In this document: positions 3,697 to 53,802 of the stretch, piece after piece
How positions within the stretch are numbered: position 1 is the first letter of the stretch
Layout: every line of letters begins with the position of its first letter
Source of the DNA: a virus
Strand: one strand, 5' to 3'
IMG/VR virus record: IMGVR_UViG_3300006737_000032
Span: 1 to 62,439 of that record
DNA length: 62,439 bases
Notes under the pieces: model-generated
Database searches by the model: none
The model's input: only the letters and a program-made list of their open reading frames with translations
Told to the model about the DNA's origin: nothing
Made by a program: the position numbers and the translations under genes

Positions 3697-4460
3697 GCAT
3701 GCGGGACAAGTTGACGGAGAGTGTGGGCAAGCCCCACCTCTCCTACTCTTCCCTAAAGCACGCGCTCGGGGACATGCGTCTCTGGGAGATGTACATGCGA
3801 GGCGAACTCAAGAAAGAGAGCGAAGCTCTTCGATTTGGTAGCTTGTATGACATGATGCTGTTCGAGCCAGAGAAAGCGAATGATACTTACCTTTATCTTG
3901 ACGACACCGATATTGTTGCTGCTATTGGTGGCCGTAACCCTAGAGTTACGAAGAAGTACCGAGAGTGGAAAGCAGAGCAGGCGGAAGCCAATGCGGACAA
4001 AGAGCTGGTATCTAAAGAGGACTGGGAGAAAGCGCAAGAGATGATCAAGCGCCTGAAGGACTGCGGGTTGTATTACAAGCAGTTCGAGGGTGGGAAGTTT
4101 CAAGTGGAGTTCAACGTAGACCTTGATGGTATTCCCCTCAAAGGATTCTTGGACTGTCTGCAAAGCGACCGCATCATTGACAGCAAGTCTTCTAGGGCTA
4201 TTGACAAATTTAGGTATGATGTGAACAGCTGGTCGTATGACATTCAGGCTTATATCTACACCAAGGTGTTTGGCATCAAGGATTTTTATTGGGTTGTGCA
4301 AGAGAAGACGTTCCCGTATTACCCTGCTGACGTAAAGTGCAGCGAAGAAACACTATTCCGTGGCGAGATGAAATTCCATCAAGCCTTGGAGAACATTAAG
4401 AGCTGGTTGGATGAGTCACCTGAACAAAGAGAAACCAATTTTGCAACGTTTGTTGTGTGA
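3693..4460 (+). CDS. PD-(D/E)XK exonuclease (RecE/YqaJ/RecB-like)
   Basis: 255 residues. The nuclease core is visible from about residue 130: FQVEFNVDLDGIPLKGFLDC, then RIIDSKSS (the D-x-K motif), then SWSYDIQAYIYTKVFG, where the conserved Q-x-x-x-Y helix follows. This is the order seen in phage RecE/DUF3799-like nucleases. The N-terminal part (LSYSSLKHAL, RFGSLYDMML) matches the family's substrate-threading region. It would resect double-stranded ends so that the ERF protein can anneal them. Confidence 0.82.
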   Translation: MSMRDKLTESVGKPHLSYSSLKHALGDMRLWEMYMRGELKKESEALRFGSLYDMMLFEPEKANDTYLYLDDTDIVAAIGGRNPRVTKKYREWKAEQAEANADKELVSKEDWEKAQEMIKRLKDCGLYYKQFEGGKFQVEFNVDLDGIPLKGFLDCLQSDRIIDSKSSRAIDKFRYDVNSWSYDIQAYIYTKVFGIKDFYWVVQEKTFPYYPADVKCSEETLFRGEMKFHQALENIKSWLDESPEQRETNFATFVV

Positions 4461-4461
4461 A

Positions 4462-4545
4462 ATGCTATCAGAAGTGGTGATGCATGCGTTCTATTTGTAC
4501 TGCGTATACATCACGCTCCTATGGATCTATCAATTGTTTAATTAA
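4462..4545 (+). CDS. Possible 27-aa membrane peptide
   Basis: A short frame from ATG 4462 to TAA 4545 gives MLSEVVMHAFYLYCVYITLL plus seven residues, largely hydrophobic. It fills the gap between the exonuclease and SSB-like genes. There is no homology argument, so it may not be translated. Confidence 0.25.
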   Translation: MLSEVVMHAFYLYCVYITLLWIYQLFN

Positions 4546-4557
4546 ATTCTATATCAC

Positions 4558-4857
4558 ATGAGTGAACAGAAGTATGATAGCGTGCTCGTAGGGTACGCTG
4601 AAGAGCCACGACGTGGCGACGATGGTCAAATCATTGCATGGACTGTGCGAATGAAGGACCACGAACTCAAGGAAATGGTGGACAAGTATGCCACCTCACG
4701 TAATGAACAGGGTCAAGGCGGCAACGTCTACCTTACAATGTTCATGTCTAAGAACGGAAAATCATGCTGTCGCGTGTACGATCCAAACAGCGAGGCCGCA
4801 AAGCAAAAGCGAGCGGCTAAGCAGGCGGAGACTGCAACCGACGATGTCCCGTTCTAA
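4558..4857 (+). CDS. Putative single-stranded DNA-binding protein (SSB-like, acidic tip)
   Basis: 99 residues preceded by the leader AATTCTATATCAC. The body is a short beta-rich segment (SVLVGYAEEP, IIAWTVRM, GNVYLTMFMSKNGKSCCRVY). The C-terminus is a Lys/Ala-rich linker ending TDDVPF, which matches the conserved acidic tip of bacterial and phage SSBs that recruits partner enzymes. Its place between the recombination genes and the primase-helicase fits. It is shorter than classical SSBs, so another OB-fold protein cannot be excluded. Confidence 0.6.
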   Translation: MSEQKYDSVLVGYAEEPRRGDDGQIIAWTVRMKDHELKEMVDKYATSRNEQGQGGNVYLTMFMSKNGKSCCRVYDPNSEAAKQKRAAKQAETATDDVPF

Positions 4858-5131
4858 GGCTCCAATCTATTTCATGACCGCTCGTGTCGCCTTCAAGAAA
4901 CGGAAGGTTGTACATGAGCGCGTCATGTGGATAGTGTCTGTCTACGACAACCCGAATGACATACGCAACTATGATACGAAGACCATGCATCGACTGGAAA
5001 CAGAGCTGTATGGCAAGAACGCGAAGTCAGAGAAGCACATTATTATTCGGGAAATCATAGAGAAGAAACTGATTTCATACTCTAACCTGACTGTTGATGA
5101 ACACAAGAAGCAAAATCAAATCGAAGTGTAA
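4844..5131 (+). CDS. Hypothetical protein (95 aa)
   Basis: Starts at the ATG at 4844, overlapping the end of the SSB-like gene (MSRSKAPIYFMTARVAFKKR). It is basic and contains HIIIREIIEKKLISYSN near the C-terminus. The start choice rests on overlap and on the absence of a better leader. It lies among replication genes, but I see no recognisable domain. Confidence 0.5.
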   Translation: MSRSKAPIYFMTARVAFKKRKVVHERVMWIVSVYDNPNDIRNYDTKTMHRLETELYGKNAKSEKHIIIREIIEKKLISYSNLTVDEHKKQNQIEV

Positions 5132-5462
5132 GAAGCTGGAGGACCTTCTGCTTCAAAAAAATGCGAAGTATGGTGACGCTGCCTTGCAGCCCATCAACAT
5201 CTTCTCTAAGGCTAATGCTGTGTCCAGTATCAAAGCTCGTATTGATGACAAGCTTAAGCGAGTCATGAATGCTGGTCCGATTGACGACACCGAAGACACC
5301 CTGCAAGACCTTGCTGGGTACATGATTCTCTTAATGATTGCCAAGGATAATGAAAGTAACGATATTCAAAAACGTCTTCGAGAAGACAACGCCTCATCAC
5401 ATAACACTACAAATAGCGCTGGATCGGATCAAGAATGGTCGGTCGAGTACCATAGTGACTGA
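5094..5462 (+). CDS. DUF1599-like (nucleotide modification-associated) protein
   Basis: 122 residues; the ATG at 5097 is an equivalent start. The core LLLQKNAKYGDAALQP, IKARIDDKLKRVMN and DTEDTLQDLAGYMILLMI follows the pattern of the DUF1599 / 'nucleotide modification associated domain 1' family, an all-alpha fold often found near nucleotide metabolism or DNA modification genes in phages. The last ~35 residues overlap the start of the primase-helicase gene in another frame. Its exact reaction is unknown. Confidence 0.65.
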   Translation: MMNTRSKIKSKCKKLEDLLLQKNAKYGDAALQPINIFSKANAVSSIKARIDDKLKRVMNAGPIDDTEDTLQDLAGYMILLMIAKDNESNDIQKRLREDNASSHNTTNSAGSDQEWSVEYHSD

Positions 5463-7149
5463 GGTTCGAGATGGAAATAAAGAGAAGAAGAAAGAGCTCC
5501 CCGTTGTTTGTTTCAGCGGGGAGTTTTCGTCGAGAGCCGATGACGCGCTCTTCGAGCATTCGGGATTTGTTGTTCTGGACTTTGACCACGTTAACGTTGA
5601 CTCAACCAAGACGTCCCTTGCCACGGATGATTTCATTCATTCATGCTGGACTTCGCCTAGCGGAAACGGCATCAAGGCGCTTGTCAGAATCACGAACCCA
5701 GAAAGACACAGGGACCACTTCCGTGCGCTAGTCACATACTTTGACAAGCAGTATGGGTTGGAGGTAGACCAGAGTGGCATCAATGAATCTCGCGCATGCT
5801 TTGAGTCTCACGACCCAGACATCATCATCAAGGATGAGTGTAAGAGGTTCGGAGCGTTTAACACCGAGAAGGCTGAGGCGCAAGCGCCAATCATAGCCGA
5901 GGGGGAGTACACAGATTACATGCGCCTGAACTTGGCCGCACGTATGATTCGCCGTGCTGATGACGGTGATAAGCACGCTACGTTGCTAAAGGCAGCGAAG
6001 CTGTGTGGTGGGTACATCAGTGCTGGACGCATGGAGGAAGACGAGGTTATCCGTGTCTTGCTAAGGGAGATTAGCAAGCGAGACATCGACTCAGAAGAAC
6101 AGGCTGTTCGCACGATCCGTGATGGGTTGGAGAATGGAAAGGGCATGCCTATTCGTGAGCTTATAGAAGGCGTCAAGGATGCTGAACGTCAGATGCGACT
6201 GCACGATGGGGACATGTCATTCATCTCGTCTGATGACGACGACTTTAAATGGATTGACGACTTCTCTCAAGGCAAGGTGGAGCTAGGCTTGGACACAGGA
6301 GACGCACTTCTCGACGAGCACTTCAGGTACAAGAAAGAGTTTGTCATCATCAACGGTCATAGTAACGTGGGCAAAACAACTACTGCCCTGTACTTCATTG
6401 TCAATGCAGCCATCAGGCATGGGTGGAAATGGGTGCTGTACTCTTCTGAAAACAGAACGGCATCCGTCAAGATGAACTTGATGCAGATGGCCATGAATAA
6501 GAAGGTGGGTGACATGTCGTATTACGAGCGCAAGAAGGCATACAAGTGGGTAAACGATCACTTTGTTATCATCAACAACGACCAAGTATACAGTTACGGT
6601 GACATCGTTCTATTCATGGAGAAAGTCATGGCTCAGCAAACCATTGACGCTATCTTCGTAGACCCATACAACAGCCTGAAGATTGACCTAAGGAACAATG
6701 CCATCAGCACTCATGACTATCACTACGAGGCTGCGTCTACATTCCTGACTTTCAGCAAGGCAAATGATGTGGCCGTGTGGCTGAACATGCATGCCTTTAC
6801 TGAGGCTCAGCGTCGCAAGGGTGAGGATGGATTGCCAACCGCACCATATGCTGAGGACACAGAAGGCGGCGGTAAGTTTGTCAATCGCTGTGACTGTTTT
6901 GTGACAATCCACAGGAAGGTGCAGTCAGCTGACCCCAACATCAGAAAGATGAGTGAGTTTCACGTTCGCAAGGTTCGCGAAGTAGAGACAGGGGGTAGGC
7001 CTACACCGCTTGATGAGCCGTACAGAATCGTCATGAACTTAGGTCACACTGGCTTTTCGGGGTGGCTGAGCCAAAAGCCTCTGTTCGACAACATAGAATT
7101 CAAGAAACAACAAATGCCTTACAGAATAGACTTCTTGTCACAGCAATGA
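5350..7149 (+). CDS. Replicative primase-helicase (BT4734-type N-terminus, RecA-like C-terminus)
   Basis: 599 residues from the ATG at 5350. The N-terminus (GFVVLDFDHV at residues 72-81, SPSGNGIKALVRI at 102-114) matches the BT4734/VirE N-terminal-like primase fold of Bacteroidetes elements. A helical linker follows. A RecA-like ATPase then has Walker A GHSNVGKTTT at about 334-343 and Walker B IDAIFVDPYN at about 431-440, as in DnaB-type helicases. It would unwind and prime at the fork. It overlaps the DUF1599-like gene by 113 bp. The whole protein is typical of Bacteroidota phages. Confidence 0.85.
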   Translation: MKVTIFKNVFEKTTPHHITLQIALDRIKNGRSSTIVTEVRDGNKEKKKELPVVCFSGEFSSRADDALFEHSGFVVLDFDHVNVDSTKTSLATDDFIHSCWTSPSGNGIKALVRITNPERHRDHFRALVTYFDKQYGLEVDQSGINESRACFESHDPDIIIKDECKRFGAFNTEKAEAQAPIIAEGEYTDYMRLNLAARMIRRADDGDKHATLLKAAKLCGGYISAGRMEEDEVIRVLLREISKRDIDSEEQAVRTIRDGLENGKGMPIRELIEGVKDAERQMRLHDGDMSFISSDDDDFKWIDDFSQGKVELGLDTGDALLDEHFRYKKEFVIINGHSNVGKTTTALYFIVNAAIRHGWKWVLYSSENRTASVKMNLMQMAMNKKVGDMSYYERKKAYKWVNDHFVIINNDQVYSYGDIVLFMEKVMAQQTIDAIFVDPYNSLKIDLRNNAISTHDYHYEAASTFLTFSKANDVAVWLNMHAFTEAQRRKGEDGLPTAPYAEDTEGGGKFVNRCDCFVTIHRKVQSADPNIRKMSEFHVRKVREVETGGRPTPLDEPYRIVMNLGHTGFSGWLSQKPLFDNIEFKKQQMPYRIDFLSQQ

Positions 7150-7162
7150 TTATATTGCATGT

Positions 7163-7609
7163 ATGCGAAAGAAACAACGACGGAGTCGGTCTAGTCGCAG
7201 CAAAAAGTTAGGAAGGTATAAGAGTTCGATAGAAAAGTACTGTGCCGACAAGCTCAAAGAGAATGGTATTGAGTTTGATTATGAGGAGACAGCATTCGAA
7301 CTGCTAGACAAGTTTAGATTCCCGCACGGCTATTGGAAGATGACTTCCAAAGCAAAACTAATGTCCAACAGGACGGGATCTGTTCTGCAGCCTATACGGT
7401 ACACTCCAGATTTTATGGGGAAGTCAGGCAAATGGGTGATAGAAACCAAAGGGTATCTGCCATCACATCATGACTTTCCAATGAGATGGAAGCTTTTTCT
7501 GAGGCACATTGTTGACAATGACCTTGGTTATGCTGTATTTTTAGCTAAGAATAGTCAACAAGTTGATCAGGCTATTCAACAGATACTAAAGATAGAGCGT
7601 CATGACTAG
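7163..7609 (+). CDS. Endonuclease I-like Holliday junction resolvase
   Basis: 148 residues, almost exactly the size of T7 endonuclease I. After a basic N-terminus, the catalytic pattern is visible: EFDYEETAFEL, then RYTPDFMGKSGKWVIETKGY, in which D and E-x-K form the PD-(D/E)XK metal site, and then PMRWKLFLRH. Such enzymes resolve branched replication and recombination intermediates before packaging. It directly follows the primase-helicase and overlaps the next start. Confidence 0.8.
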   Translation: MRKKQRRSRSSRSKKLGRYKSSIEKYCADKLKENGIEFDYEETAFELLDKFRFPHGYWKMTSKAKLMSNRTGSVLQPIRYTPDFMGKSGKWVIETKGYLPSHHDFPMRWKLFLRHIVDNDLGYAVFLAKNSQQVDQAIQQILKIERHD

Positions 7610-7832
7610 GGACCAGCTAAGCCTAATGTATATGGTGGCTACTATGCGCGTTCATCAAGCCACATCAAACATGTACGAAGAACTTCATGATCTAGATGGC
7701 GATCCACTGGAGGACCCCGACGCAGTAAAAGAGCTGTTGAATGAATTCAAGAGGACTACGATAGAAGAGATTTCTTTAGCTCTGTCAGCGGTCCAAGAGT
7801 TCATAGATGAAGATGGCCACAAGGAAGAGTAG
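7602..7832 (+). CDS. Hypothetical protein (76 aa)
   Basis: The ATG overlaps the end of the resolvase gene. The product is helical and acidic (MYEELHDLDGDPLEDPDAVK, then ALSAVQEFIDED). I recognise no family. Overlaps at both ends suggest coupled translation with its neighbours. Confidence 0.5.
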   Translation: MTRDQLSLMYMVATMRVHQATSNMYEELHDLDGDPLEDPDAVKELLNEFKRTTIEEISLALSAVQEFIDEDGHKEE

Positions 7833-8346
7833 GGTAGACCTGCGGCTCGGCAGGGTGGTTGAGAACCGATGGCTTCGGATATTTCCTAACGCCCGAAAGT
7901 CTAGTCAAGAAGAAGACATGTACATGCACGTTGACTTCTGGCATGACAGTGTTGGAGTGGACGTAAAGGGAAACAACTTGCCCGATGAGATCTGGGTAGA
8001 GTTTATCAACGTGAACGGAAAGAAAGGGTGGCTACATGGTGGGGCCAAGTACATAGCATTTGATGTTCCAGAGCTCAGGGGATTCATCAGGGTAAAAAGA
8101 GCAGAGCTTCTTGAGTGGTGCAGACATAATGTAGAGAAGAGTTATGTTCAAAAAAACGACTGCTACCGCAAGCTATACCGCAGGTATGGCCGCAAAGACT
8201 GCATCACAAAGCTTACAATAAACGATCTGGCAGAGCTTACAAGCTACACTCTAATCAACTATGTGTCATGGATTTACCACCCAGTGACTGGAGAAAAGAT
8301 TGAAATAGACCAGCCACGCACCAGGTACAAGAGCACAAATGTGTGA
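7807..8346 (+). CDS. Putative PD-(D/E)XK nuclease-like protein
   Basis: 179 residues (an ATG at 7813 is also possible). The motif VDFWHDSVGVDVKGNN fits a D-x(n)-D-x-K nuclease core, followed by IWVEFINVNGKKGWLHGG and AKYIAF. These resemble the strand pattern of uncharacterised phage PD-(D/E)XK proteins that carry 'W-E-x-x-N-x-x-G-x-x-G-W' after the core. It is likely a DNA endonuclease or a modification partner. It is the last gene of the replication block before a gap with hairpins. Confidence 0.55.
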   Translation: MKMATRKSRVDLRLGRVVENRWLRIFPNARKSSQEEDMYMHVDFWHDSVGVDVKGNNLPDEIWVEFINVNGKKGWLHGGAKYIAFDVPELRGFIRVKRAELLEWCRHNVEKSYVQKNDCYRKLYRRYGRKDCITKLTINDLAELTSYTLINYVSWIYHPVTGEKIEIDQPRTRYKSTNV

Positions 8347-8391
8347 CACATAATCATCATTATACTACAATATATTGTGTAGAAAAAATTC

Positions 8392-8410
8392 TGGATCTAG
8401 ATTAGATCCA
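8392..8410 (+). promoter_or_regulatory. Hairpin ending on the start codon of the lipoprotein gene
   Basis: TGGATCTA (8392-8399), a GAT loop and TAGATCCA (8403-8410) form a perfect 8-bp hairpin. The A of the ATG at 8410 is its last base. The preceding 50 bp also hold the near-palindrome ACAATATATTGT. The hairpin could limit initiation or act as a 5' mRNA stabiliser. It resembles the start-codon hairpins at 58.6-60.8 kb. Confidence 0.45.
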
Positions 8411-8670
8411 TGAAAACAATCGCGCTGTTATTGCCCGTACTTTTTGTTGGTTGCATGAGCACCCCAGCTAAGGTTTACGTGCAGCCAGAAAAATTCAATT
8501 GCGACCTTATCATCCCTACGATCTGGGATGGCAATCATCCAGTTGAACACTTCGAGCATGAGATGATTCTTGATGCTGTGTACCACGATTATACGGGGTA
8601 TAAGTACACACTGGTAGCAACAGACATCCCGAATGTCTTTGCCCTCCAGGTTGATGTGGATCAACCGTAA
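8410..8670 (+). CDS. Small secreted lipoprotein
   Basis: 86 residues. The N-terminus MKTIALLLPVLFVGCMST is a signal peptide with a lipobox (LFVGC), so Cys15 would be lipidated after export. The mature part is about 70 residues with no recognised domain. Phage lipoproteins of this size include superinfection-exclusion factors and outer spanins. No inner spanin lies next to it on this strand, so exclusion or surface change is possible but unproven. Confidence 0.6.
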   Translation: MKTIALLLPVLFVGCMSTPAKVYVQPEKFNCDLIIPTIWDGNHPVEHFEHEMILDAVYHDYTGYKYTLVATDIPNVFALQVDVDQP

Positions 8671-8700
8671 CCTTACTACAGAACATAACGTATCCAGGGT

Positions 8701-8868
8701 ATGTGGTCAACATACATAATGGATTTCTTGCTTTTGTTAGCAAACTATGGCCAGGCCATTGACCCTGAGTCTCATGCTGCGTGCATGGACTTCAACAGCG
8801 ATGGGTTTATTACGATGTATGACTTCCTTGAAATGCTGTCCCAGCAGCCGTTAATCGAAAAGGAATGA
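8701..8868 (+). CDS. 55-aa protein with a dockerin/EF-hand-like calcium loop
   Basis: Frame from ATG 8701 (alternative 8719) to TGA 8868. The product contains MDFLLLLANYGQAID followed by CMDFNSDGFITMYDFLEML. DFNSDGFITMYD matches the D-x-N-x-D-G-x-[IV]-x-x-x-D calcium loop of dockerins, and LLLLANYG resembles the helix preceding such loops in marine Bacteroidota proteins. It overlaps the next start by four bases. It looks like an isolated dockerin half, matching those in the tail proteins at 24.8-30.4 kb. Confidence 0.5.
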   Translation: MWSTYIMDFLLLLANYGQAIDPESHAACMDFNSDGFITMYDFLEMLSQQPLIEKE

Positions 8869-9098
8869 TAAAGAATACAGAGTACCATCAAGTGGTGAAG
8901 GCTGTTGTTTCGAAGGACTTCAAGTTTATCCACGTTGACGCTGGCATAGGCGACAATGGATTCCAGCGCATTTTTACAGAGACACAAGAAGAGGAAGTCA
9001 TGCACTGCTACCTCTATCCAATTATCGAGCAGATAGTTCGGTCAGAGTTCTACGACCTTAAAGACATGGCGCTTACCATCAAGGTGACGTGGGTCTAA
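8865..9098 (+). CDS. Hypothetical protein (77 aa), last rightward gene
   Basis: Begins MIKNTEYHQVVKAVVSKDFK at an ATG overlapping the previous stop. It has alternating strands and helices and no recognised family. Its stop codon abuts the stop of the leftward thioredoxin-like gene at 9099 with no intervening base, and no clear bidirectional terminator is visible. Transcripts from both sides may therefore overlap here. Confidence 0.5.
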   Translation: MIKNTEYHQVVKAVVSKDFKFIHVDAGIGDNGFQRIFTETQEEEVMHCYLYPIIEQIVRSEFYDLKDMALTIKVTWV

Positions 9099-9464
9099 TC
9101 AGAAGTCGTTCAGCATAATGTCATCGACAGCCTCCTGAACCTCGGCAATCGTTGCATCCATTGTCATCATGATGTTGGCTTGGAATCTCTCCGCTTCCTC
9201 CCCCTCGTTGAATACAACAATCGTCGGGACGACAACAATCTTGTGCTTCTTCTGAAGGTCTGGAGCAGTAGCAATGTCCACACGAGCAGTCTCGCAATCG
9301 TTCAGCTTCTCTATCCATGGTACACTGTTTTGGCTGTTAAAACTTGCGTTGAACTCTACAACGCAAATTCCTGATCCGCACACTTCTTTATCCTCTACAG
9401 CGGTCACATAGGTTGCCGCCCACAAGAAAGCAAAGGATGCAATTAGGGTTGATGCTAGTTTCAT
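9099..9464 (-). CDS. Exported thioredoxin-fold protein lacking the CxxC
   Basis: 121 residues with an N-terminal signal peptide (MKLASTLIASFAFLWAATYV). The mature part reads ICVVEFNASFNSQNSVPW and later HKIVVVPTIVVFNEGEE, the beta-alpha-beta order of thioredoxins with cis-Pro at residue 80. Where the redox CxxC should be there is SQNSV (44-48). A different pair, C29 and C34 (CGSGIC), lies before the fold. Activity as a disulphide reductase is unlikely; it may be a binding or assembly factor. It is the last gene of the late leftward block. Confidence 0.6.
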   Translation of the reverse strand: MKLASTLIASFAFLWAATYVTAVEDKEVCGSGICVVEFNASFNSQNSVPWIEKLNDCETARVDIATAPDLQKKHKIVVVPTIVVFNEGEEAERFQANIMMTMDATIAEVQEAVDDIMLNDF

Positions 9465-9467
9465 GTC

Positions 9468-9755
9468 TCATTTGAGTTGATCTATTTTTTCTTCAATACG
9501 CTTGATGTCCTCTTTGATTTCCGTGACGTCTTCTTGAGTTGTCATGATGGTTTGACGAACAAGCTGATCTTTCATGTCAAACTCCATGCGGGTGATCTCG
9601 GGCTCGGAAGGTAAAGGCAGTTCCTTTGCCTCGGCAATGTCAGCCTGCAGTGCAAACCACATACCTACAATCGTCCCTATGCCAGCCGCTACCATCCCAA
9701 GCGTCTTGAGGTCGAGCGTTACTTTAGTGTCCTCTCCAATTTGTTGTGCCATCAC
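9468..9755 (-). CDS. Membrane-anchored coiled-coil protein (possible spanin-like)
   Basis: 95 residues. A transmembrane segment lies at about residues 19-39 (GMVAAGIGTIVGMWFALQA). A charged C-terminus follows, with heptad-like EDVTEIKEDIKRIEEKIDQL. One N-terminal membrane span plus a periplasmic coiled coil is the plan of an inner-membrane spanin and of some phage membrane tethers. It lies at the end of the late operon near the beta-barrel-like and T9SS genes. Assignment to lysis is only an inference. Confidence 0.45.
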   Translation of the reverse strand: MMAQQIGEDTKVTLDLKTLGMVAAGIGTIVGMWFALQADIAEAKELPLPSEPEITRMEFDMKDQLVRQTIMTTQEDVTEIKEDIKRIEEKIDQLK

Positions 9756-10798
9756 AATAGTATGTAGTTGATTCCTACAGAGAAGTCATGCCACTCTCTG
9801 TTCCAGTATCTGTTGTATTTCCCTTCGGTAAACACACCGAGGCTTTTTGTAATCTTCGTTCCAAACACAAGCCCAAACCCTAAATCTATCCACTGACTGC
9901 TGTTGACAAAGTTGTGGTATGAATACTCTCCGTCTGTGTCAAGGTGGTACGGCATCACGTTGCCCCATGAGTGCAGCCAAAAGTTTTTTTCGTAGTGGTA
10001 GAAATCAAAGCCCACAACCACCGAGTGCAGCCACTGGCCATCGAGCTCAGATCTTTTTTCAGATACATAGTCATCAAGAACCTGAGGGATGACCACCTGC
10101 TCCCATACTGCCTGATCATTGGCAACTACGACGCCGTCTGGCGAAAAGAATTCTCCTGTGTTTACATCAACACTGTACCCCTGCTCTAGAGCTAGGGCTG
10201 TGTAGTGAATCTGATTGTTTTCAAGAAGCCACTGTTGAAGTGGATCGTATCCATACGGTTGTGATATGCGCTGCACCACACCTGCATTCAGAGATAGCTT
10301 CTTACCAATCTTGACCCTTCCCCTTTGTGAAGCCTCAAAGTATCGAACATCAGCAAACCCATCTTGCAAGTATTCTGCCTTGACTATCCAGCTGTCTGCT
10401 ACATATCGGGCGAAGTAGTCTTGGTCCAAGAAGTTTTTGCCCTGCTGTCTTCTCCAGTCAGCTTCAGCAAGAAACTCAAACCCTGAGTACTTACCGACTG
10501 TCGCAGCGTCACCGTATGTTTTTTCTGTGCCGTCGTAAAAGATGTTGGCTCTGTTTTCGTATCCAAACCTTGCAATCTTCCTGACACCCAGCGTTAGTGA
10601 ATAATCAAACGGAGTCTCCACGACATCGGTCGTCAACGGACCAGTGGCAACAGAGAATACGTCTTGGTCAGATACTGAGTTGCCTCCATTTACAGCCGCG
10701 TAAAATGTGGCGCGTCTCAATACATTCTTGTAGAAGTCGCTTTGACCGTAAGAGAGCACTGGCAGAATCGCCAGCAAAAGTGTAATCAAACGATTCAT
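9752..10798 (-). CDS. Exported beta-barrel-like outer-membrane protein
   Basis: 348 residues with a Bacteroidota-style signal peptide (MNRLITLLLAILPVLSYGQ, cleavage after the Gly/Gln). The remainder alternates aromatic and polar residues in short strands (SLTLGVRKIARFGYEN, VVGFDFYHYEKNFWL) and ends HDFSVGINYILL, a terminal strand ending in a hydrophobic residue as in outer-membrane barrels. I infer a phage-encoded outer-membrane protein. It overlaps the end of the T9SS gene by four bases, so the two are expressed together. Confidence 0.5.
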   Translation of the reverse strand: MNRLITLLLAILPVLSYGQSDFYKNVLRRATFYAAVNGGNSVSDQDVFSVATGPLTTDVVETPFDYSLTLGVRKIARFGYENRANIFYDGTEKTYGDAATVGKYSGFEFLAEADWRRQQGKNFLDQDYFARYVADSWIVKAEYLQDGFADVRYFEASQRGRVKIGKKLSLNAGVVQRISQPYGYDPLQQWLLENNQIHYTALALEQGYSVDVNTGEFFSPDGVVVANDQAVWEQVVIPQVLDDYVSEKRSELDGQWLHSVVVGFDFYHYEKNFWLHSWGNVMPYHLDTDGEYSYHNFVNSSQWIDLGFGLVFGTKITKSLGVFTEGKYNRYWNREWHDFSVGINYILL

Positions 10799-13167
10799 TG
10801 TCTTACGATTCTTTCCTTTTTGATTCGGCCTTTGTAGTTGGCTACAATCGTATACACTCCAGGTGCTGGAAGCTCCACACTACTGGGCGACTCAACTAAG
10901 ATCTCGCGACCAACAGCGTCGAACGCTCTGACTATTGTCCCCACTGGGGCCTGAATGTTTACTACCCCACTAGTCGGGTTGGGGAAGAAGCGAAGCAATG
11001 ACCGCACAGCCATATCCACTGAAGTGACCCCGTCACCACAGTAGTCGTACATCTCCGCACACACCGCATCCCATGATGTCTCACAGCAGTACGGGTCAAC
11101 CTCAATCACCCAAGAGTAGCAGTAGTCATTAGCCCAGTACGGTTCTCCAGGTCCAGTGATGCATCCAGCGTCATACACACAATCGTCTGTTGGCGTGTTG
11201 GCCTCTTCATCATAGTTGTATGCGTCAATGTCCATGCACCCCTCGATCACATCTATGCATGATTCGATATCTACGTTAGCCTCTGGGTCATAGTTCAGCG
11301 CTTCAGGATCTGTGCATCCAAATACAGCTAGTGTGACGCAGCTTCCATCATCGTAGTCTGCTTCATATCCCTGTGTGTAGTACTCCAGATAGCCAGCTTG
11401 AGTACACCCAGCGTTGTAGTAACAGCTTCCGTCCTCTGTGTTTACGCTGGAGTCATAGTTCTGTGCGAGCTCATCTGTACACCCATACATAAACGGCACA
11501 CAGCTAGTCCCACAGTACGGCATGAAGCTGTATACATTCCACTCAGGATTCTTGAATGGCTGCAGTGCCCCTTGACCGTTGTCAAAGAATGGATTAAGCC
11601 CCTCTACCATCAGCGTGTCTCCAGCTTCATTAGTTATCAAGATGGAGTTGTGAAGTGTTTGAAACTCAGTCTCTTGTGGAGGCTGTTGTGGGCTGCCTAT
11701 CTCGAAGTAGTATACGTCTACCTTTTCGTCAGAGTCAAGCACTAAGTCCCATGATTGAGAAAACTCTCCAGGACCCATGCTAAATATCCATTGCAAATCA
11801 CCTTGCTTCACGCCTATGTGTGAGTTGCCCCAGCCGTCTCCAGCAGCATCACCAATTCGAATTGTTGTAACACAGGGACTGTTTAGATCTGAGATCGTAG
11901 CAGTTGAGTCGTAGTTAAATGACTCTGGGTCCATACATCCCCACGTATGCAGCGTAAGACAGTCGTCTGGTTCTGTCGCTTCTGGGTTGTAGTCAACGTA
12001 GTCGTCATCCATGCACCCTACTATGACGCTGTCGGGGGCACACGGCTCTACAAACACAGCCCCAGAGTAATGTACGTTGCCATCATTGTCGGAGTAGGCG
12101 AGGTCCTCCAACTCCCAAACAACCTCTTCGTCACACGCAGTGATAACGACGCCTCCGTCTTGACCTCCGCTTGCTGATCCGTTAAGACCGTCTCCGTATG
12201 TGTCCGTCAGGATAAGCTCAAAGCCTAGCGCAACGCAAAAGTCATACGTATACGTGGCCAGCTGATCTCCAAAGTTAAATCCACCAGGAAGCACCTGTTC
12301 ATAGAACTGGCCAACAGCTAGATCAACAAGCGTAAACCCAGTTTCATTGGGCCAGTTGTCTAGTGTTAGCTCCATAGACACAAAGGCTTGCCCCTCTGGG
12401 CATTCGCTTACGTTGCAGCTTCCGTCATCGGTAGTTGCCCATGGATTGTAGTTGTTGGACGAATCGTCCATGCAGCCAGGTATAGGAAACTGACATGGAT
12501 CAAGAATGAATGGAACTGTGATTTGCTCTGTATTAAAATCAAAGACAGATATATCAAGTCCGCAGTCATTGCTCAAGCCAAACCACCCCTCACCAAACTG
12601 ACAGCATATTCCATCACCAAAGGCATCATTCACCACAAGGTTGTACTCACCAGAGGGAAGGGGTATTGTTTGTTGTGTGTATGTTGAGTCTTGATATGGG
12701 CCCCCAGATGCGTATGGGTCATCAGATCCAACCATGTATATGTCCCATGTGCTTTCTCCCCCGTATGCATCAGACTGAAACTCTAGGGTCACCCAGCTGG
12801 GCTGTGCTGCGGCAGCCATACCCAACATCATGAGCACTGCCGTCGCTGTGTTTTTGATTACTCGCATGCCATTCTCTGCTCTTCTCTCTGCTCTTCTGGT
12901 CTTTCTTCTGTTTTTTCTGACAATCTTATTGGCTTGCCTTTTCTTGTATCGAGACACCCTACCCTTCTCTCTTTTCTCTTTTGCAGCCCTAGCTCTTTCT
13001 GAGGGAGACAGCTCACTCCAAGTTGCGGGTGTGTCTTTTGACACACGAACAGTAGGGCGGAAGGTTCTGTCCCCTCCGCTATAGCCTTTTTTGCCTCTTG
13101 GCGTTCTCCATTTTTCTTTGAACCAACGCTTGAGAGCCAGACCTTTTGCTGTCTTGCGTACAGCCAT
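10795..13167 (-). CDS. T9SS-sorted, Cys-repeat surface protein fused to a DUF5872-like basic domain
   Basis: 790 residues in three parts. Residues 1-100 are very basic and begin MAVRKTAKGLALKRWFKEKW, then GKKGYSGGDRTFRP, resembling the DUF5872 family of small virus proteins. At Met101 a second signal-peptide-like start begins (MRVIKNTATAVLMMLGMAAA). Residues ~235-680 hold seven repeats of the type GCMDDSSNNYNPWATTDDGS. The last ~70 residues (about 10798-11016) are a type A T9SS sorting domain: FFPNPTSGVVNIQ, VRAFDAVGREI, APGVYTIVA and the basic end KKERIVRQ. T9SS exports such proteins to the cell surface. An internal start at 12867 would give the 690-residue secreted form. Confidence 0.8.
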   Translation of the reverse strand: MAVRKTAKGLALKRWFKEKWRTPRGKKGYSGGDRTFRPTVRVSKDTPATWSELSPSERARAAKEKREKGRVSRYKKRQANKIVRKNRRKTRRAERRAENGMRVIKNTATAVLMMLGMAAAAQPSWVTLEFQSDAYGGESTWDIYMVGSDDPYASGGPYQDSTYTQQTIPLPSGEYNLVVNDAFGDGICCQFGEGWFGLSNDCGLDISVFDFNTEQITVPFILDPCQFPIPGCMDDSSNNYNPWATTDDGSCNVSECPEGQAFVSMELTLDNWPNETGFTLVDLAVGQFYEQVLPGGFNFGDQLATYTYDFCVALGFELILTDTYGDGLNGSASGGQDGGVVITACDEEVVWELEDLAYSDNDGNVHYSGAVFVEPCAPDSVIVGCMDDDYVDYNPEATEPDDCLTLHTWGCMDPESFNYDSTATISDLNSPCVTTIRIGDAAGDGWGNSHIGVKQGDLQWIFSMGPGEFSQSWDLVLDSDEKVDVYYFEIGSPQQPPQETEFQTLHNSILITNEAGDTLMVEGLNPFFDNGQGALQPFKNPEWNVYSFMPYCGTSCVPFMYGCTDELAQNYDSSVNTEDGSCYYNAGCTQAGYLEYYTQGYEADYDDGSCVTLAVFGCTDPEALNYDPEANVDIESCIDVIEGCMDIDAYNYDEEANTPTDDCVYDAGCITGPGEPYWANDYCYSWVIEVDPYCCETSWDAVCAEMYDYCGDGVTSVDMAVRSLLRFFPNPTSGVVNIQAPVGTIVRAFDAVGREILVESPSSVELPAPGVYTIVANYKGRIKKERIVRQ

Positions 13168-13997: not shown

Positions 13998-14814
13998 ATG
14001 TCTTTACTGTTCTGTACGGCATAGCAGCTCTGCCGCCATGCTCGTTCATCCTTGGGTTTGGTTTTCCAGAGATCTTCTTGCTGGTAAGCGGTTTGATCAG
14101 GTCGTTGTAGACAGCATTGAACATTGGCTTGTTCGTATCATACAACTCCTTCAGGGTTGGCCCTAACTTCTTGGCAATCGTATCCCCATCCTTCAGTAGC
14201 ACGTCGTCGATACGGGTCTGTGTAAAGATCTTGTCAACAGCCTCCTGAAAAATCTTGACAGCCTTCTGTTCTTCTATGACACCATCCGCCAGAGCTTTAT
14301 CAAGCTTTCCTTGAAGATTCAGTATAGCCTGACTCTCTTCTTTGCTTGCATTCTGTATAGCTCGTTGGGCTTGAGTTTGAAGTTTACTCTTCTCAATTCT
14401 ACCCTTCAAGGCCCTTATGGCTGGATCAGATGCCTTTCTTGCAGCCTTCGCTGCAGGGTTATCGGACTTAACAAACATCGCCATCTCGTCTTCAGGGATG
14501 CCCATCTTTCTCAGCTCCGCCAAGTCAGCGGCGTCTACGCCTTGCTTTGCCAGAGCACCAAGAGAGTCGTCGGACTTTGATGTTAGGATTCTTTTCATCG
14601 CTTCAATGCCAGCCTTTCCGCCCCTGTATCCGAGTCTAGTAAGCTCACCCACACCCACAGCATCGAGCAAAAGGTCGGGGCGCATGGTGACGGGCCCGTC
14701 TTCAAAACCGTAGAGCTGCATAGATGGGCTCAGGTTAGACGGTGCCAGCCTAGGTTCAGCAACAGCCTCGGGAGGATGCGTGCCGCCGTGTGGATATCGT
14801 CTGACAGACTTCAT
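13990..14814 (-). CDS. Virion-type protein with N-terminal H-G-G-x-H motif (274 aa)
   Basis: Begins MKSVRRYPHGGTHPPEAVAE. The R/K-Y-x-H-G-G-x-H motif also opens the proteins at 55421-55810 and 56286-57218. The middle is helical and charged (ALKGRIEKSKLQTQAQRA), and the end reads GRAAMPYRTVKTYA. I recognise no domain. It overlaps both neighbours by a few bases within the late operon. Confidence 0.5.
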   Translation of the reverse strand: MKSVRRYPHGGTHPPEAVAEPRLAPSNLSPSMQLYGFEDGPVTMRPDLLLDAVGVGELTRLGYRGGKAGIEAMKRILTSKSDDSLGALAKQGVDAADLAELRKMGIPEDEMAMFVKSDNPAAKAARKASDPAIRALKGRIEKSKLQTQAQRAIQNASKEESQAILNLQGKLDKALADGVIEEQKAVKIFQEAVDKIFTQTRIDDVLLKDGDTIAKKLGPTLKELYDTNKPMFNAVYNDLIKPLTSKKISGKPNPRMNEHGGRAAMPYRTVKTYA

Positions 14815-15248
14815 TTTCTAGATTTCTCGATGGTGCGACCAGCAAAGTATGCACCAAATGATGTTAGCATTAGTATCTCTAACAAAGATACGTAACTATC
14901 TTTTACGTTAAATGGCCATGCATCCATGCTGTCGGCCACCATCGTTGCCATGAACATTGTCATCAGAGCGATAAGAGTAAGGGGCCTGATAAGCTTTGCC
15001 AGCTTGACATCGCTACCCATGTCCGCCTTCCATCTTTCGCTGACGTTGTTCTGAAACTGAACCTCTGCATCAAGCATCGCCTTGGCTTCTGCTGGATCAA
15101 CGTTTGGCTCTTTGTCTAGTAGATTTTTTACTACTCCAAGTCCACCGCTGTCGGGCAGTAAGTCAGCTACAACGCCCAGTACACCTGGGGCCTTGTCTTT
15201 TAGCCATCCGCCAAGCTTGGTGTCTTTGATCTTTTTTTTATCACTCAT
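14811..15248 (-). CDS. 3TM holin-like membrane protein
   Basis: 145 residues from the Met at 15248 (MSDKKKIKDTKLGGWL). The order VLGVVADLLPDSGGLGVVKN, SERWKADMGSDVKLAKLIRP, LTLIALMTMFMATMVADS and YVSLLEILMLTSFGAYFAGR matches the 'holin of 3TMs' family described in gene transfer agents (PF11351). It has a helical N-part and two strong hydrophobic segments near residues 87-105 and 118-137. It would permeabilise the inner membrane for release of the M15 endolysin, although that gene is 40 kb upstream in the same block. Confidence 0.7.
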   Translation of the reverse strand: MSDKKKIKDTKLGGWLKDKAPGVLGVVADLLPDSGGLGVVKNLLDKEPNVDPAEAKAMLDAEVQFQNNVSERWKADMGSDVKLAKLIRPLTLIALMTMFMATMVADSMDAWPFNVKDSYVSLLEILMLTSFGAYFAGRTIEKSRK

Positions 15249-18200
15249 TTGATTCTGGTATTGGGTCTCCACCGCGTTCTGACATGTCGAGGATTGCCCG
15301 TGTTTGTTCTTCTGTAAGGTTTCTTCTTCTGCACTCTGCAACGATGAGACGGACAAGCTCTAGATTAAACGCCGCAGCATTTTTCATGATTGTTACCGAT
15401 TGCTCTACTTTCTCGTCCATCGACAAAGACTTATACCAGGTCTCTCTTTCCACCATGGCGTCAACCTGTTTGTCGGTAAGCTGTGATGGGGGCAGGTATA
15501 CATTTGCGATATACGAAGTAGATGCGTCATCACTCAGGCCAGCGGCTTCGTGCATAGCGGTGATCTCGCCCACATTCAAGTCCAATCGGACCGTCATGTT
15601 CGTAACGTCTTGGCCCTTGGAGTGGTTCCTGTTGTGGATCTCCATGTAGTCTTGAGCTGCAGTCGCTATCTTCTTTGGGTCTCCAAGCTCTGGTTGCTTG
15701 GTGAACGGAGAGAATGATCTGTATTTGACTTGGTTCGCATACTCGTTCCACTCTTTTGTCTTGTTGGCACCAGCAACATCTACTGGCAGGTACGTGACTC
15801 TGAATCCAAGCAGACCGTATACGGCGTCTTCGAGCGTGTACTCTTTGTATCTGGTCTTTGGAGGGAAGTACTCGTAGAACTGATCCATGGCATTCTCCAA
15901 CGGGTGTCCGTTCGGAAGCTCTTCGTCACCAGACACAAGCTTAAAGACCTCTTCCACAGCCCCAGCTCTTAAGAATTCTGTTACGTTTCCAACAAATCCA
16001 GGTGCGACCTTCTTGAGGAATTGAACAAACACCTTGTCGGGTTGACGTATAGCTGCAGAAAGGGGTGACTCCCCAGGCTCAGTGTCTACAATTGACATGC
16101 CTCCCTCTTGTGTGTTTTGATAGAGCTCCTGAAGGAACCCAAACGTCACATCGCTAGAGAAGAACGGTGACCCAGCCTCCCACAAAGCAGACTGCAGTTT
16201 ATCTTGGAAGTTTACATCGTCAGGGTCCATGCCCATTACTGCCTTCAACGGCTTGAGAATAGCCTCGTGGGGTAGCATATAGGACATGTCCATGAAGTAT
16301 GGTGATCCATTCTCCACCCCCAAGTAAAACAGGTTAGATAGCTTCTGCCACTCTGGTCCAAGACTTCTTACTGCCTCATCGTCTTGATCTGTGAACCCGA
16401 GTCTGTCTTTGCTTTCTTCAGCAAGAGCATAAGCACTAACAAGAGACGCGGTGAGTCCCGCTGCCCTTCTCATAGCCATGCCTGTTCTTCCCGCTTGAAA
16501 GTCTTCAGCAATAAATTTGAATTGGTTGGTGGTTGTGCGCCACATCTCGTATGGGAATGACACAAAGGAACCAGCCAGTGGAAATCTTCTCAACTCTTTT
16601 GTGCCCCTAGAGATCTTGCTGTATGTGGGGTAGCCGTCCCTCACTCTCTGCGCAGCCTTGGCTTCTGCCTCTGCTACCGACATGCCCGAATCAAGAAACG
16701 CTTTGCGCTCTTGATAGTATCCATTGACCTTGTAGAAGTCATCACCAAATGCATACAGCTTCTGAGCGGTCTCCATCACCCTGTTGCCTTTCAGGATTCT
16801 GTTGACGTCGCCGCCCATGCTATCATTCAAGGTCTCCATGAGCTCTCGTGCATTTGCACCATCATTCAACACGCCAAGCTCAATGAGTTTTCTTACTTCA
16901 ACCCTGTATGTTTGATTTCTCTTAAACTTTCCATGCACCCCCCAAGCCATCTGCATGGCATCAAGGGTTGCCATTGGGTTTCTGGCAAAAGGAATGTGGC
17001 CGTTTGCAGCTGACAAGCCTAGCCCACTGATCAAGTTTCTTGCAGTGGTGGTTGGAGCCAGCACTGTTTTACCAACCTTGACGGCTGCGGACGCCTGAAC
17101 GAGCGTCTTGTATAAACCATCGTCGAGCGACTTGAGTGGCATTAGGTTGTCGAATGCCGTCTTAAAGTTCTGTGGTACGTATAGGTCAGCCAGTGGCAAC
17201 CAAGCCTCTGACGTAGGCGACAGCTTCACCATCTTTCCATTTGGTGAGTCCATCCCCTCAAACTCTACGCCCATGCGAGCCATCCCAGAGTCTCTAAGAA
17301 TCAACGACATTTCTGTTTGCCACCTTGCATTTGACAAGTACGAGTTCAGCTTTGACGCTGTTGTCACGTAGGCATTCATTGGGTCTTTGATCTTACCTAG
17401 CAAATCTTCAATCGGCTTGGGTAAATCTTTCTTAGCCTTCAAGAACGGTGCGTCCATAGCCCCCATCATGCTGAAGCCTCCGCCTCCATTTCTCTGGTTC
17501 TTTAGACCTATGAGATATGCGTTGAGCTCTCTCCGCGCCAGTTTTTGACGCTCCGCCTTTGTAAGCGGCACATCACCAAACGGCTGATCATATCTCTCTG
17601 CGATGTAGTCGATCGCGTTCTTGTATATCTTCTGAATGTCTGGGGGCATGGCATCATATCCACCCTCCTGTGTTAACAAGTCAAGTCTTCTGCCCCCATC
17701 GTTGAACAGTTCATACGATGTGGTCAAATATCTACCTTTGTTTGATCTGATCTTTTCGATCAGCTCTGCTCTTGCCTTTGCTTGTTCTGGCGTGCCCAAT
17801 GGCTGTTTCTCAAGCGTAGCAATAAGAGACTCCGACAAGCCGTCAATCTGCTCCCTAAAGAACGTAAGCTGTTCTTTGGAGTCCGCGCTAAGGTTGTTGA
17901 GCCTTGGGTCGTCCATTTTGATCTTGCCCTCCAGAGCTTCCAGCATCGCTGCCTGAGTGTCCTTGAGCATAGCTCCCTTGATTCTGATTCCGCCAGGTCC
18001 ACGGCGCACCTGTCTAAGCAGGTTTCTCCAAGACCGAGCATCAAACGATACCTCATTTATCCATGCAGAAGCAAGGCGCTCTCTGCTTCGGACGACCTCT
18101 TCAATCTCTGGGTTTTTGATTCCGCCGTTGCTCTTGAACCATTTGTTCCAAACGTTTTTGGCCTTCTGGCCGAACCTCTTGACAGTGGCGGACCTTTTGT

Positions 18201-45372: not shown

Positions 45373-46035
45373 TCAATCAACAGTATTTATTTTGCCGATG
45401 CTTGCTGTAGCAACCGTATTGACTTTTGCAATGCTTCCAGAGGCTACACCGTTAACCTTGTGACCGTATCCAGTAGCGGCCAAAGTGTAGTCTAGAGTTA
45501 TCGTAGTGCTGAAATCTATCGAAATGTCCTCAGTAGCATTTGTGTCTGTATTCTGAAAATCAGAATCATGCATAATCACAGCTACTGTAAAGTCATTGTT
45601 ATTCTGAATATCAGACAGAGCCGCTGATGTTAGGGTATACTCGTTGTTTGATGTGGACCACGTAGTGAGCTCTGTAGAGTAGGCGGTGCTGTAGTCCAAA
45701 GAGCTAAACATGTCTGAAGTAGAAATGGCTGTACCTCCATCCCCACCAAAGGCTGTGCTTTTCACGAGAATCGTGTCGTTTGGATCTGGCTGATTAGAAC
45801 TTCCCCCCTGTATGTCAATATGGGCTGCTGTTACAGTCCCTGTGATGCTGCTTGTATCAAAATGAATGAAAGCTCTAGTGAATCTATGAGCGCCCCTACC
45901 AACAAAAAACTGCACAGAGAGATCTCCAGTTGGCCCATCAGTAGCAGTGCCTGAATCAGAAGTTCTGGCTGTACTAAAGTTTGAGTTTGTAACACCCACA
46001 ATACGGCCTACTCTGTTTGCGTTTATCGTAGGCAT
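45373..46035 (-). CDS. Fibre-associated beta-protein (220 aa)
   Basis: It contains VQFFVGRGAHRFTRAFIHFD followed by TAAHIDIQGGSSNQPDP and TITLDYTLAATGYGHKVNGV. The pattern of 'RAFIHFDTSSITGTVTAAHI' strands resembles carbohydrate-binding or DNRLRE-type domains used in fibres. The C-terminal repeat GYGHKVNGVASGSIAKVNTV and TASIGKINTVD suggests a short attachment tail. It overlaps the collagen-like gene. Confidence 0.5.
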   Translation of the reverse strand: MPTINANRVGRIVGVTNSNFSTARTSDSGTATDGPTGDLSVQFFVGRGAHRFTRAFIHFDTSSITGTVTAAHIDIQGGSSNQPDPNDTILVKSTAFGGDGGTAISTSDMFSSLDYSTAYSTELTTWSTSNNEYTLTSAALSDIQNNNDFTVAVIMHDSDFQNTDTNATEDISIDFSTTITLDYTLAATGYGHKVNGVASGSIAKVNTVATASIGKINTVD

Positions 46036-47357
46036 TATGCAGTGACCTCTACAAAGGTTTTGTCTGGATCAAAGTATATCACTCTAGTAGTAGCATTTAC
46101 ACAATACCCAATCACCCTAACAATGTCGCCATTTCCTGAAGGGGCAGTATTTGTTATCTCTCCAGTCGTAGTGCTCACATAAACAATCTGACCCGTTGTT
46201 AACCCAGAAAAGCTAGTGTGCCTAGCAAATCCACGGACAAGGAATCTAGTAGTATCATCAGCTACAGCTATCCCTATCATTCCGCTAGACGTTGAAGCTG
46301 CATTAGCGTCTGTCTCTTCCCACTGCTGACTAGAGTCCAAGTAATACAGCTTACCCTGCTCAATGTTACCATCAATCCCACTGGGACCGCTTCCAAAGGT
46401 AACAGCCTCTCCGTGATATTGGTCCGCAGTATCTGGGAAAGAAAATACTTCAACTCCAGTAACAACAAGATTATTACCGTCAAAGGTCAAGTTGCTTTCA
46501 GCAGATATGGCGTTTGTGCCATCTCCCGTAAGCAAAGAGTTAGCCGATAAACTAGTTGCCCCTGTGCCACCTTTAGATACGGGGACAGTATTAGAAAGCG
46601 TATTCCCAGCAGCAGTAATTGTAATAGGTGCCGTGCCGTCAAAGTCTACTCCGTTGATTGCTCTTGCTGTTGCAAGTGCTGTAGCTGTTGCAGCATTGCC
46701 AGTAGTGCTTTGGTTAAGGGTGGGAACATTGTTTGCATGTATTGTGCCAGCACCATCAGATGTAAGGTCTACGGGTATGGCATCAACTTCAAGGTCAATC
46801 GTTCCGTCATCATCTTGATACGTGGCAGAGATTCGTGTCTCCGTGTTGCCAGAAAACATACCGCCTACAATATCCTGAACCTGCTCGGTGCTTAGCTGAG
46901 TGTTTGTATCAGCAGAAGCTATCGTAACTGTGTCGCTTGATGCGTTTGTTGTAATAGTTACGTTAGACCCAGCGGCAAGAGTGAGGGTGTCATCCACTCC
47001 ATCAGCAACCACATTGTCCTGACCAGATACAGCCAGTGTGGTAAAGGCATTGGGTGAGGTACCATCAGATCCAGCTGGACCTTGAGGCCCTGTAGCGCCC
47101 TGAGGACCCGTGGAGCCTTGAGGCCCCGTAGAACCTGTTGGACCTTGCGGTCCTGTGGCTCCTGTTGCGCCCGTAGCTCCTGTAGCACCCGTAGCACCAG
47201 TATCTCCTTTTGGACCCTTGTTAGTAACTATAATCTGACTCGCTTCTTTTTCAGATACAGATACAGAGGTTGATGTCGATGTAAAAGAAACAGAAGTCCC
47301 TCCGTTTACAGATACAGAAACTGAATTACCAGCTGTTGTAGTAACGCTTACAGACAT
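46035..47357 (-). CDS. Collagen-like tail fibre protein (440 aa)
   Basis: After a Ser/Thr/Val-rich N-terminus, residues ~48-99 are uninterrupted G-x-y triplets ([16 protein letters not shown], then [13 protein letters not shown]), which predict a collagen triple helix. The rest is a long beta-rich shaft ([40 protein letters not shown]) of phage fibre type and a C-terminal head with [20 protein letters not shown]. Likely a homotrimeric fibre. Host adaptation by change in G-x-y number is common in such proteins. Confidence 0.75.
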
Positions 47358-52413: not shown

Positions 52414-52424
52414 GAATTAAATTG

Positions 52425-52498
52425 TGCGCCTGTCAGGACTCGAACCTGAAACCTGCGCATTAGAAGTGCGCTGCTCTATCCTGTTGAGCTACAGGCGC
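52425..52498 (-). tRNA. tRNA-Arg (anticodon TCT)
   Basis: The minus strand folds as a canonical tRNA: acceptor GCGCCTG/CAGGCGC with discriminator A, D-arm AGCTCAACAGGATAGAGC, anticodon arm GCGCA-CTTCTAA-TGCGC with TCT in the loop, and T-arm CAGGTTCGAGTCCTG. CCA is not encoded. It reads AGA/AGG codons, which can be frequent in the phage relative to its host. Confidence 0.93.
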
Positions 52499-52944: not shown

Positions 52945-53234
52945 TACTTCGAGAATCTTTCGGCAAATCCGCCTGAATAGTCTTTGGCTTCTTCTAACTC
53001 TCCATTGCTCTTTAGATCGTTGATCATTTGCTCAAGGCGCTGGCGCTCCACAAGCAGCTCTTTGCAATCAGTGGCCGTTTGCTTGATAGACTGTAGTTCA
53101 GCCTTTCGTGCGCTACCATTGATGTCTGGATCAACAGGCTTTTTGATTTCGTCGATCATGTTGTTGATAGCAGCCTCCATGGACGACATTAGCCTTCCAG
53201 CAGCCTCAATCGTTGTGAACTTCTTCTTCGACAT
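52944..53234 (-). CDS. Hypothetical helical protein (96 aa)
   Basis: It begins MSKKKFTTIEAAGRLMSSME and continues as a charged coiled coil (LLVERQRLEQMINDLKSNGE). It could be a terminase small subunit by position and helicity, but no helix-turn-helix is recognisable. Its start overlaps the end of the GroES-like gene by 29 bases. Confidence 0.5.
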   Translation of the reverse strand: MSKKKFTTIEAAGRLMSSMEAAINNMIDEIKKPVDPDINGSARKAELQSIKQTATDCKELLVERQRLEQMINDLKSNGELEEAKDYSGGFAERFSK

Positions 53235-53802
53235 ACATTAGGTCTTCGACACGGGTGCGGTAGTATTCCGTTCCGTCAATCTTGATACGATAGTCTCTGT
53301 TTTCCTTGAAACAAACGACGTCGCCTTTCTTTACGCCAATAGCCTTCAAATGTTTCGAGTCAAAGGCAACCTTGCCCTTTGTTGGAAGCTTTTCTTTGAG
53401 CGATACGATTTGGACTTCTGTCTCTTCCTTTTCTTCTTCAACAGGAAGCAACAGACTCCAGCCATCAAGTGGGGTAATCTTACCCTTCTTATTCTTATAG
53501 GCAATCGCCTGATTGTTTACTGCGTGCTCTGGATCAAACTTTACAAAGTAACTGTCATCTATGCCCGTAAGCTTTTGTCCGCCCTGCATAACAACAAGGT
53601 GATGAAAGTACAGCGTATCTCCAACCTTTACAGGTGTCTTATACTTGGCTGGCGTAGCGATGACGGGACCGTCGGTTACCCGATTATTAAACTCACCCAT
53701 TTCAAATCGGGTGTCAATAAACAGTTCAACACCACCTTTCGTGGTGATTGTATCGTTGATGGGTTTGTCCAGCTCAACGATAAACATATTTAGCGACCTC
53801 AT
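53206..53802 (-). CDS. GroES-like co-chaperonin, probably two GroES domains (198 aa)
   Basis: The N-terminal half has GGVELFIDTRFEMGEFNNRV, TDGPVIATP and TPVKVGDTLYFHHLVV, the order of a GroES fold including its G-D motif. The second half repeats it: KGKVAFDSKHLKAIGVKKGD, VVCFKENRDYRIKIDGTEYY and RTRVEDLMYVEE, matching the C-terminal strands of GroES. Phage co-chaperonins such as T4 gp31 replace host GroES so that GroEL can fold the capsid protein. The ATG overlaps the upstream stop (ATGA). Confidence 0.6.
   Translation of the reverse strand: MRSLNMFIVELDKPINDTITTKGGVELFIDTRFEMGEFNNRVTDGPVIATPAKYKTPVKVGDTLYFHHLVVMQGGQKLTGIDDSYFVKFDPEHAVNNQAIAYKNKKGKITPLDGWSLLLPVEEEKEETEVQIVSLKEKLPTKGKVAFDSKHLKAIGVKKGDVVCFKENRDYRIKIDGTEYYRTRVEDLMYVEEEVHND

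Follow-up and report, generated by a model that had tools for sequence, protein, structure and literature searches.

Cargo proteins of the type IX secretion system (T9SS) that bear a type A sorting domain are exported by Sec and then by the T9SS. Phage-encoded cargo of this kind is already known, with precedents in Cryophage and the crAss-like phages. Cryophage, a cryoconite phage, carries three variable T9SS-tagged genes whose cargo comprises an endoglucanase, a GH39 protein and a PA14 protein; secretion via the host system was proposed for them, and superinfection was mentioned (PMC7468147). In crAss-like phages, T9SS sorting-domain proteins lie near BACON ORFs (PMC6949934). A third point of comparison is the cultured Flavobacterium phage immuto (NC_055915).

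We analyzed a window consisting of a whole 62,439-nt stretch of viral DNA (IMG/VR record IMGVR_UViG_3300006737_000032), in which a T9SS-tailed protein is encoded within a four-gene module. The module genes and two neighbors are as follows.

9099 to 9464, minus strand: secreted thioredoxin-like (Trx-like) protein without CxxC (PF00085, 22.6 bits, cut-off 23.5)
9468 to 9755, minus strand: protein with one transmembrane (TM) segment and a C-terminal coiled coil (weak matches to PHROG 1009/462)
9752 to 10798, minus strand: predicted outer-membrane beta-barrel, directly downstream of the T9SS gene, its ATG overlapping the T9SS gene stop (ATGA)
10795 to 12867, minus strand: the T9SS cargo gene itself, encoding 690 aa with a signal peptide, beta-sandwich domains, Cys repeats, and a C-terminal sorting domain
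12868 to 13167, minus strand: DUF5872 basic protein (Pfam PF19197, 44.4 bits, cut-off 27.5, residues 5 to 67)
14811 to 15356, minus strand: holin-like protein (phrog_3427, 78.9 bits), an upstream neighbor in the same late block, outside the module

Cryophage and the window share T9SS type A domains on phage products that are strongly variable between phage variants (PMC7468147). Unlike Cryophage, the window has a Cys-repeat cargo and a conserved four-gene envelope module that occurs in marine phages of several backbones. The crAss-like phages resemble the window in being Bacteroidota phages with T9SS-tailed proteins near head genes, but they are gut phages with BACON-type bodies, and no barrel-coiled-coil-Trx module was found in the accessible part of that source (PMC6949934). 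The gp013-gp019 region of immuto likewise encodes a T9SS-tailed protein (PF18962, 34.6 bits, cut-off 27) adjoining signal-peptide proteins and a one-TM protein. It differs in its cohesin and C-type lectin bodies and in a thioredoxin with an ordinary CxxC, and no barrel or coiled-coil homolog was found at the corresponding place. In the immuto segment that we used (NC_055915.1, 6186 to 20419), the locus at 4342 to 10224 reads C-type lectin, gp014, cohesin with T9SS tail, one-TM protein, gp017, gp018, and gp019; the C terminus of gp018 is possibly barrel-like. Proteins with T9SS-like tail ends were also seen in a 642-kb uncultured phage (LR756502.1) and a gut phage fragment (MT836089.1). The first-pass annotation, made from the window sequence, had recognized a phage-encoded T9SS cargo; the tail is real, but the precedents in Cryophage and crAss-like phages and the four-gene module had been missed. 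No earlier description of the module was found in the mainly open-access literature covered.

An open frame of 790 aa is present at 10795 to 13167 on the minus strand, with a C-terminal end reading ...LLRFFPNPTSGVVNIQAPVG...LPAPGVYTIVANYKGRIKKERIVRQ. The first-pass annotation had treated this frame as a single gene; the frame exists, but it runs a DUF5872 gene and a T9SS gene together. The DUF5872 part occupies the first 100 residues (net charge +27), and the signal peptide of the T9SS gene starts at residue 101. The T9SS gene of the relatives examined begins with the signal peptide; several of them also have DUF5872, which there forms an ORF of its own, usually about 86 to 97 aa long. The in-frame fusion was seen in the window genome alone. 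We rejected the 790-aa ORF as a single protein, no such DUF5872 run-on having been seen in the relatives. Because relatives start the T9SS gene at the signal peptide and carry DUF5872 separately, the true gene is taken as 10795 to 12867, with its start at about 12867, and the fusion is taken as a presumed local loss of a stop codon. The parts of the 690-aa product are as follows.

12805 to 12867, minus strand: Sec signal peptide MRVIKNTATAVLMMLGMAAAA, residues 1 to 21, before Q22 (by inspection)
12493 to 12798, minus strand: N-terminal beta-sandwich with an FGDGICC..GEGW motif, residues 24 to 125, weakly like calcium-dependent CBM60/CBM36
12415 to 12477, minus strand: Cys repeat 1, GCMDDSSNNYNPWATTDDGSC, residues 131 to 151
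11872 to 12018, minus strand: Cys repeats 2 and 3, residues 284 to 303 and 310 to 332
11179 to 11484, minus strand: Cys repeats 4 to 7, residues 462 to 563
10798 to 10998, minus strand: T9SS type A C-terminal sorting domain, residues 624 to 690 (profile, PDB-sequence and fold matches)

For comparison with other phages, we aligned 44 relatives of the T9SS protein (alignment A1). On inspection, an N-terminal Sec signal peptide is present in the 690-aa product and in every aligned relative; in 44/44 relatives it is a hydrophobic leader ending before an invariant Gln. The N-terminal domain resembles vCBM60 (2xfd; Z = 7.4, rmsd 2.6 over 86 residues), a weak match that lies under the safe-match level. 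Seven Cys repeats had been claimed from the sequence, and seven of the form GC..[NDE]Y..C were found, six with GC[MT]D and one with a degenerate GCTQ; a related Cys-rich stretch follows at residues 568 to 594. In A1, the Cys-rich stretch preceding the tail has many invariant positions. The body as a whole contains 30 cysteines and three GDG-type stretches within beta-rich regions, with a net charge of −97, and no enzyme family was recognized in it. The A1 profile matched 53 of 196 genomes of the host order (the order of a Flavobacteriales metagenome-assembled genome [MAG]) at 1e-20, mostly over the repeats. The search for a homolog of the whole protein in annotated phages gave a single weak match (MH319765, 11% of the query). 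For the model of the T9SS protein as a whole, the top-ranking Foldseek matches, to otoferlin and comparable large proteins, were discarded as multidomain noise.

Identification of the C-terminal domain depends on the relatives. TIGR04183 matched residues 728 to 790 of the window ORF at 15.2 bits (E = 0.016), below the curated cut-off of 23, so the window sequence by itself is not decisive; with the search confined to one genome, the E value was 6.4e-5. The first-pass annotation had let its sorting-domain claim stand or fall by an HMM hit, and the window sequence alone came close to failing. The relatives settle the domain: TIGR04183 matched 40 of the 44 sequences in A1 and PF18962 matched 34 (both at E = 0.001). 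A profile built from 32 relatives with <45% tail identity scored the window tail at 61.8 bits, compared with 13.5 for the best of 5,000 shuffles. Only the C-terminal end of the A1 profile matched PDB chains, among them 8glk and 8glj, which are tails in structures bound to the T9SS complex, and the gingipain tails 5hfs and 7pq4. In the predicted model, where the tail region has a pLDDT of about 65 to 83, the tail adopts the Ig-like seven-strand fold of T9SS type A domains; residues 622 to 690 superimpose on the RgpB tail (Z = 9.7, 1.8 Å over 66 residues) and resemble the NucA tail 8glk (Z = 7.9; Foldseek TMt 0.71). Gingipain RgpB and NucA, both Bacteroidota T9SS type A cargo, thus share the fold and motifs of the C-terminal domain with the window protein, but they are host-encoded enzymes, whereas the window body has no recognized enzyme domain. 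Judged by these profile matches and the predicted fold, the claimed type IX sorting domain appears to be genuine and of type A.

The barrel gene encodes a protein with a signal-peptide start and, on the predicted model, a transmembrane beta-barrel. This model, of moderate confidence (pLDDT 69), matched Tsx, NalP, NanC, and others at Z of about 13 to 14; PorV and PorP/SprF were absent from the listed fold matches, although such lists cannot exclude T9SS barrels. No match to the barrel over cut-off was found in Pfam or NCBIfam, no relatives were found in the PDB by sequence, and none of the barrel, coiled-coil, and thioredoxin-like proteins had a match in annotated phages. Among 395 Bacteroidota genomes searched, the sole match to the barrel was a phage contig within the MAG, and the barrel was absent from the other 394. 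The coiled-coil protein (9468 to 9755) is probably inner-membrane and periplasm-facing. Its topology fits an inner-membrane spanin, and its match to PHROG 462 ("lipoprotein") is weak; no outer lipoprotein of a two-component spanin was identified. At the place of CxxC, the family of the fourth protein (9099 to 9464) has FNASFN or similar (consensus of 96 aligned relatives), and by this sequence it is best called thioredoxin-like only.

To assess how widely the module is distributed, we examined related viral loci. At least 572 confirmed viral relatives of the T9SS protein were detected in the viral scan, and 80 were retained. In the partly redundant set of loci examined, 157 had the barrel, 143 the coiled-coil protein, and 136 the thioredoxin-like protein; co-occurrence is inflated in these counts because the loci were partly collected with module genes as queries. 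The common gene orders are rotations of T9-barrel-coiled coil-Trx, and among 68 close pairs of T9SS gene and barrel gene, 64 showed an overlap of exactly 4 nt. All 32 records selected by the barrel had a T9SS tail (over the curated cut-off in 30), as did 8 of 9 terminase-found records of ≥33 kb; terminase-found fragments of 25 to 32 kb had none (0/4), a result of little weight. The module occurs on several backbones, including 60-kb phages, ~120-kb phages (records of 114 to 120 kb), and an Immutovirus-like contig, L247, from a Flavobacteriales MAG. RNR, DnaB, and QueC of L247 are 54 to 72% identical to those of the cultured myophage immuto (RNR, 70 to 72%), and its barrel, coiled-coil, and Trx-like proteins are 61%, 63%, and 49% identical, respectively, to those of the window. 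A T9-barrel pair was also seen in a Nitrosopelagicus (archaeal) MAG (CALBOT010000064.1), probably a misbinned phage contig.

Terminase, portal, and virion proteins share the record with the T9SS gene, which makes its product a phage-encoded T9SS cargo. The window terminase is kin to those of elemoviruses and Cellulophaga podophages (29 to 47% identity to named phages). Because the hosts of its relatives are Flavobacterium, Cellulophaga, Tenacibaculum, and Maribacter, the Bacteroidota host proposed from the sorting domain is well founded. Barrel and tail were both absent from the terminase relatives tested as whole records, cultured ones included; the module is therefore not essential to this phage type. 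Elsewhere in the window are a collagen-repeat protein, probably a tail fiber (46035 to 47357, with short tandem repeats at 47076 to 47208), a tRNA-Arg (TCT) gene at 52424 to 52498, immediately upstream of the terminase, a phage GroES-like protein (53206 to 53802; phrog_13932, Pfam Cpn10), and an M15 peptidase, the probable endolysin (54934 to 55413).

The genes of the module differ in how far they vary. Median pairwise identity was 0.45 for the body and 0.36 for the tail, compared with 0.62 for the barrel and 0.75 for the coiled coil. Identity also changes abruptly within single proteins: loci L067 and L056 are 16 to 62% identical up to about residue 560 and 80 to 90% thereafter, whereas L051 and L042 are 70 to 95% identical in the body and 10 to 39% in the tail. 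These alignments indicate that bodies and tails are exchanged between phages while a T9SS tail is retained. Pairwise identities of tail and barrel were correlated (0.77) more strongly than those of body and tail (0.36 to 0.44), a pattern in which physical linkage and co-adaptation are inseparable; where the T9SS gene lies away from the barrel, the tail-barrel correlation was 0.89, from only 15 related loci. Four loci (L008, L009, L010, and L012) have a second T9SS-tailed gene (412 to 530 aa) between the first and the barrel.

We predict that the module probably serves surface display via the host T9SS. With its signal peptide, the 690-aa protein would be exported by Sec and, once in the periplasm, would fold as a chain of beta-sandwich domains and disulfide-rich repeats. 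The tail suggests that the host T9SS would recognize the C-terminal domain and move the protein across the outer membrane, after which the tail would be removed and the protein attached to the surface or released. The barrel, coiled-coil, and thioredoxin-like proteins may cooperate with it in the envelope, for instance by providing a partner in the outer membrane and by assisting folding or tethering. Because the gene ends the structural block, after the holin, its position suggests late expression, and the surface of the infected Bacteroidota cell would be redecorated, probably late in infection. Receptors would thereby be masked or altered, so that other phages, or the phage's own progeny, would not adsorb to the doomed cell or its debris. 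Of the roles suggested in the first-pass annotation, superinfection blocking suits the variable bodies and is the one that we prefer; receptor masking would fit a surface body that varies while its envelope partners stay more constant. We regard masking as quite possible, though short of probable.

The main rival to masking is adhesion, in which the protein would act as a surface adhesin or competition factor through which infected cells would adhere to particles, glycans, or neighboring cells, aiding spread of progeny to new hosts. The bead-like, strongly acidic, Cys-rich bodies with their weak CBM60-like resemblance would suit such a role; these repeats are frequent among host-order proteins, and immuto has a C-type lectin near its cohesin-T9SS protein in the corresponding region. 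Against this, a late position near the holin would leave little time for adhesion to matter, and we consider it doubtful. An aid to lysis is less likely, as is a virion coat. A lytic role would have the coiled-coil protein and barrel form a spanin-like bridge while the T9SS protein weakens the outer surface. In its favor, the module is often found after the holin and, in L247, ahead of an endolysin-like gene; the topology of the coiled-coil protein is that of an inner-membrane spanin, and the genes scanned yielded no other recognizable spanin. However, a spanin needs no variable, T9SS-tagged protein of 690 aa, the M15 peptidase of the window lies far off, and no spanin family was matched, which leaves this role unlikely.

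Coating of virions after lysis, or packaging into them, has the least support of the roles suggested in the first-pass annotation. It would accord with the place of the gene at the end of the structural block, but the signal peptide and T9SS tail are predicted to remove the protein from the cytoplasm, where virions are assembled, and the neighboring genes encode envelope proteins; we judge it decidedly improbable. That the gene was simply captured from a host, with no role for the phage and a tail left over from its bacterial origin, is more improbable still. Repeats and tails of these types are indeed common in the host order, yet the gene recurs in at least hundreds of viral loci, beside a barrel that it overlaps by a strict 4 nt and whose only match among 395 Bacteroidota genomes was a phage contig, and its tail has been kept through repeated swaps.

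Marine Bacteroidota rank among the main degraders of algal polymers, and much of the protein on their surface is delivered by the T9SS. A wider proposal, possible if rather speculative, is that the module is transferable, its phage barrel and periplasmic partners forming a dedicated adaptor to the host T9SS through which swapped passenger bodies repaint infected marine Bacteroidota. A widespread phage module exploiting the T9SS would alter the encounters of infected cells with other phages, particles, and neighbors, and it would offer a genetic handle on superinfection in Bacteroidota. The cultured phage immuto is a ready laboratory system, and the natural swaps of bodies and tails provide material for learning what the T9SS requires of a tail.
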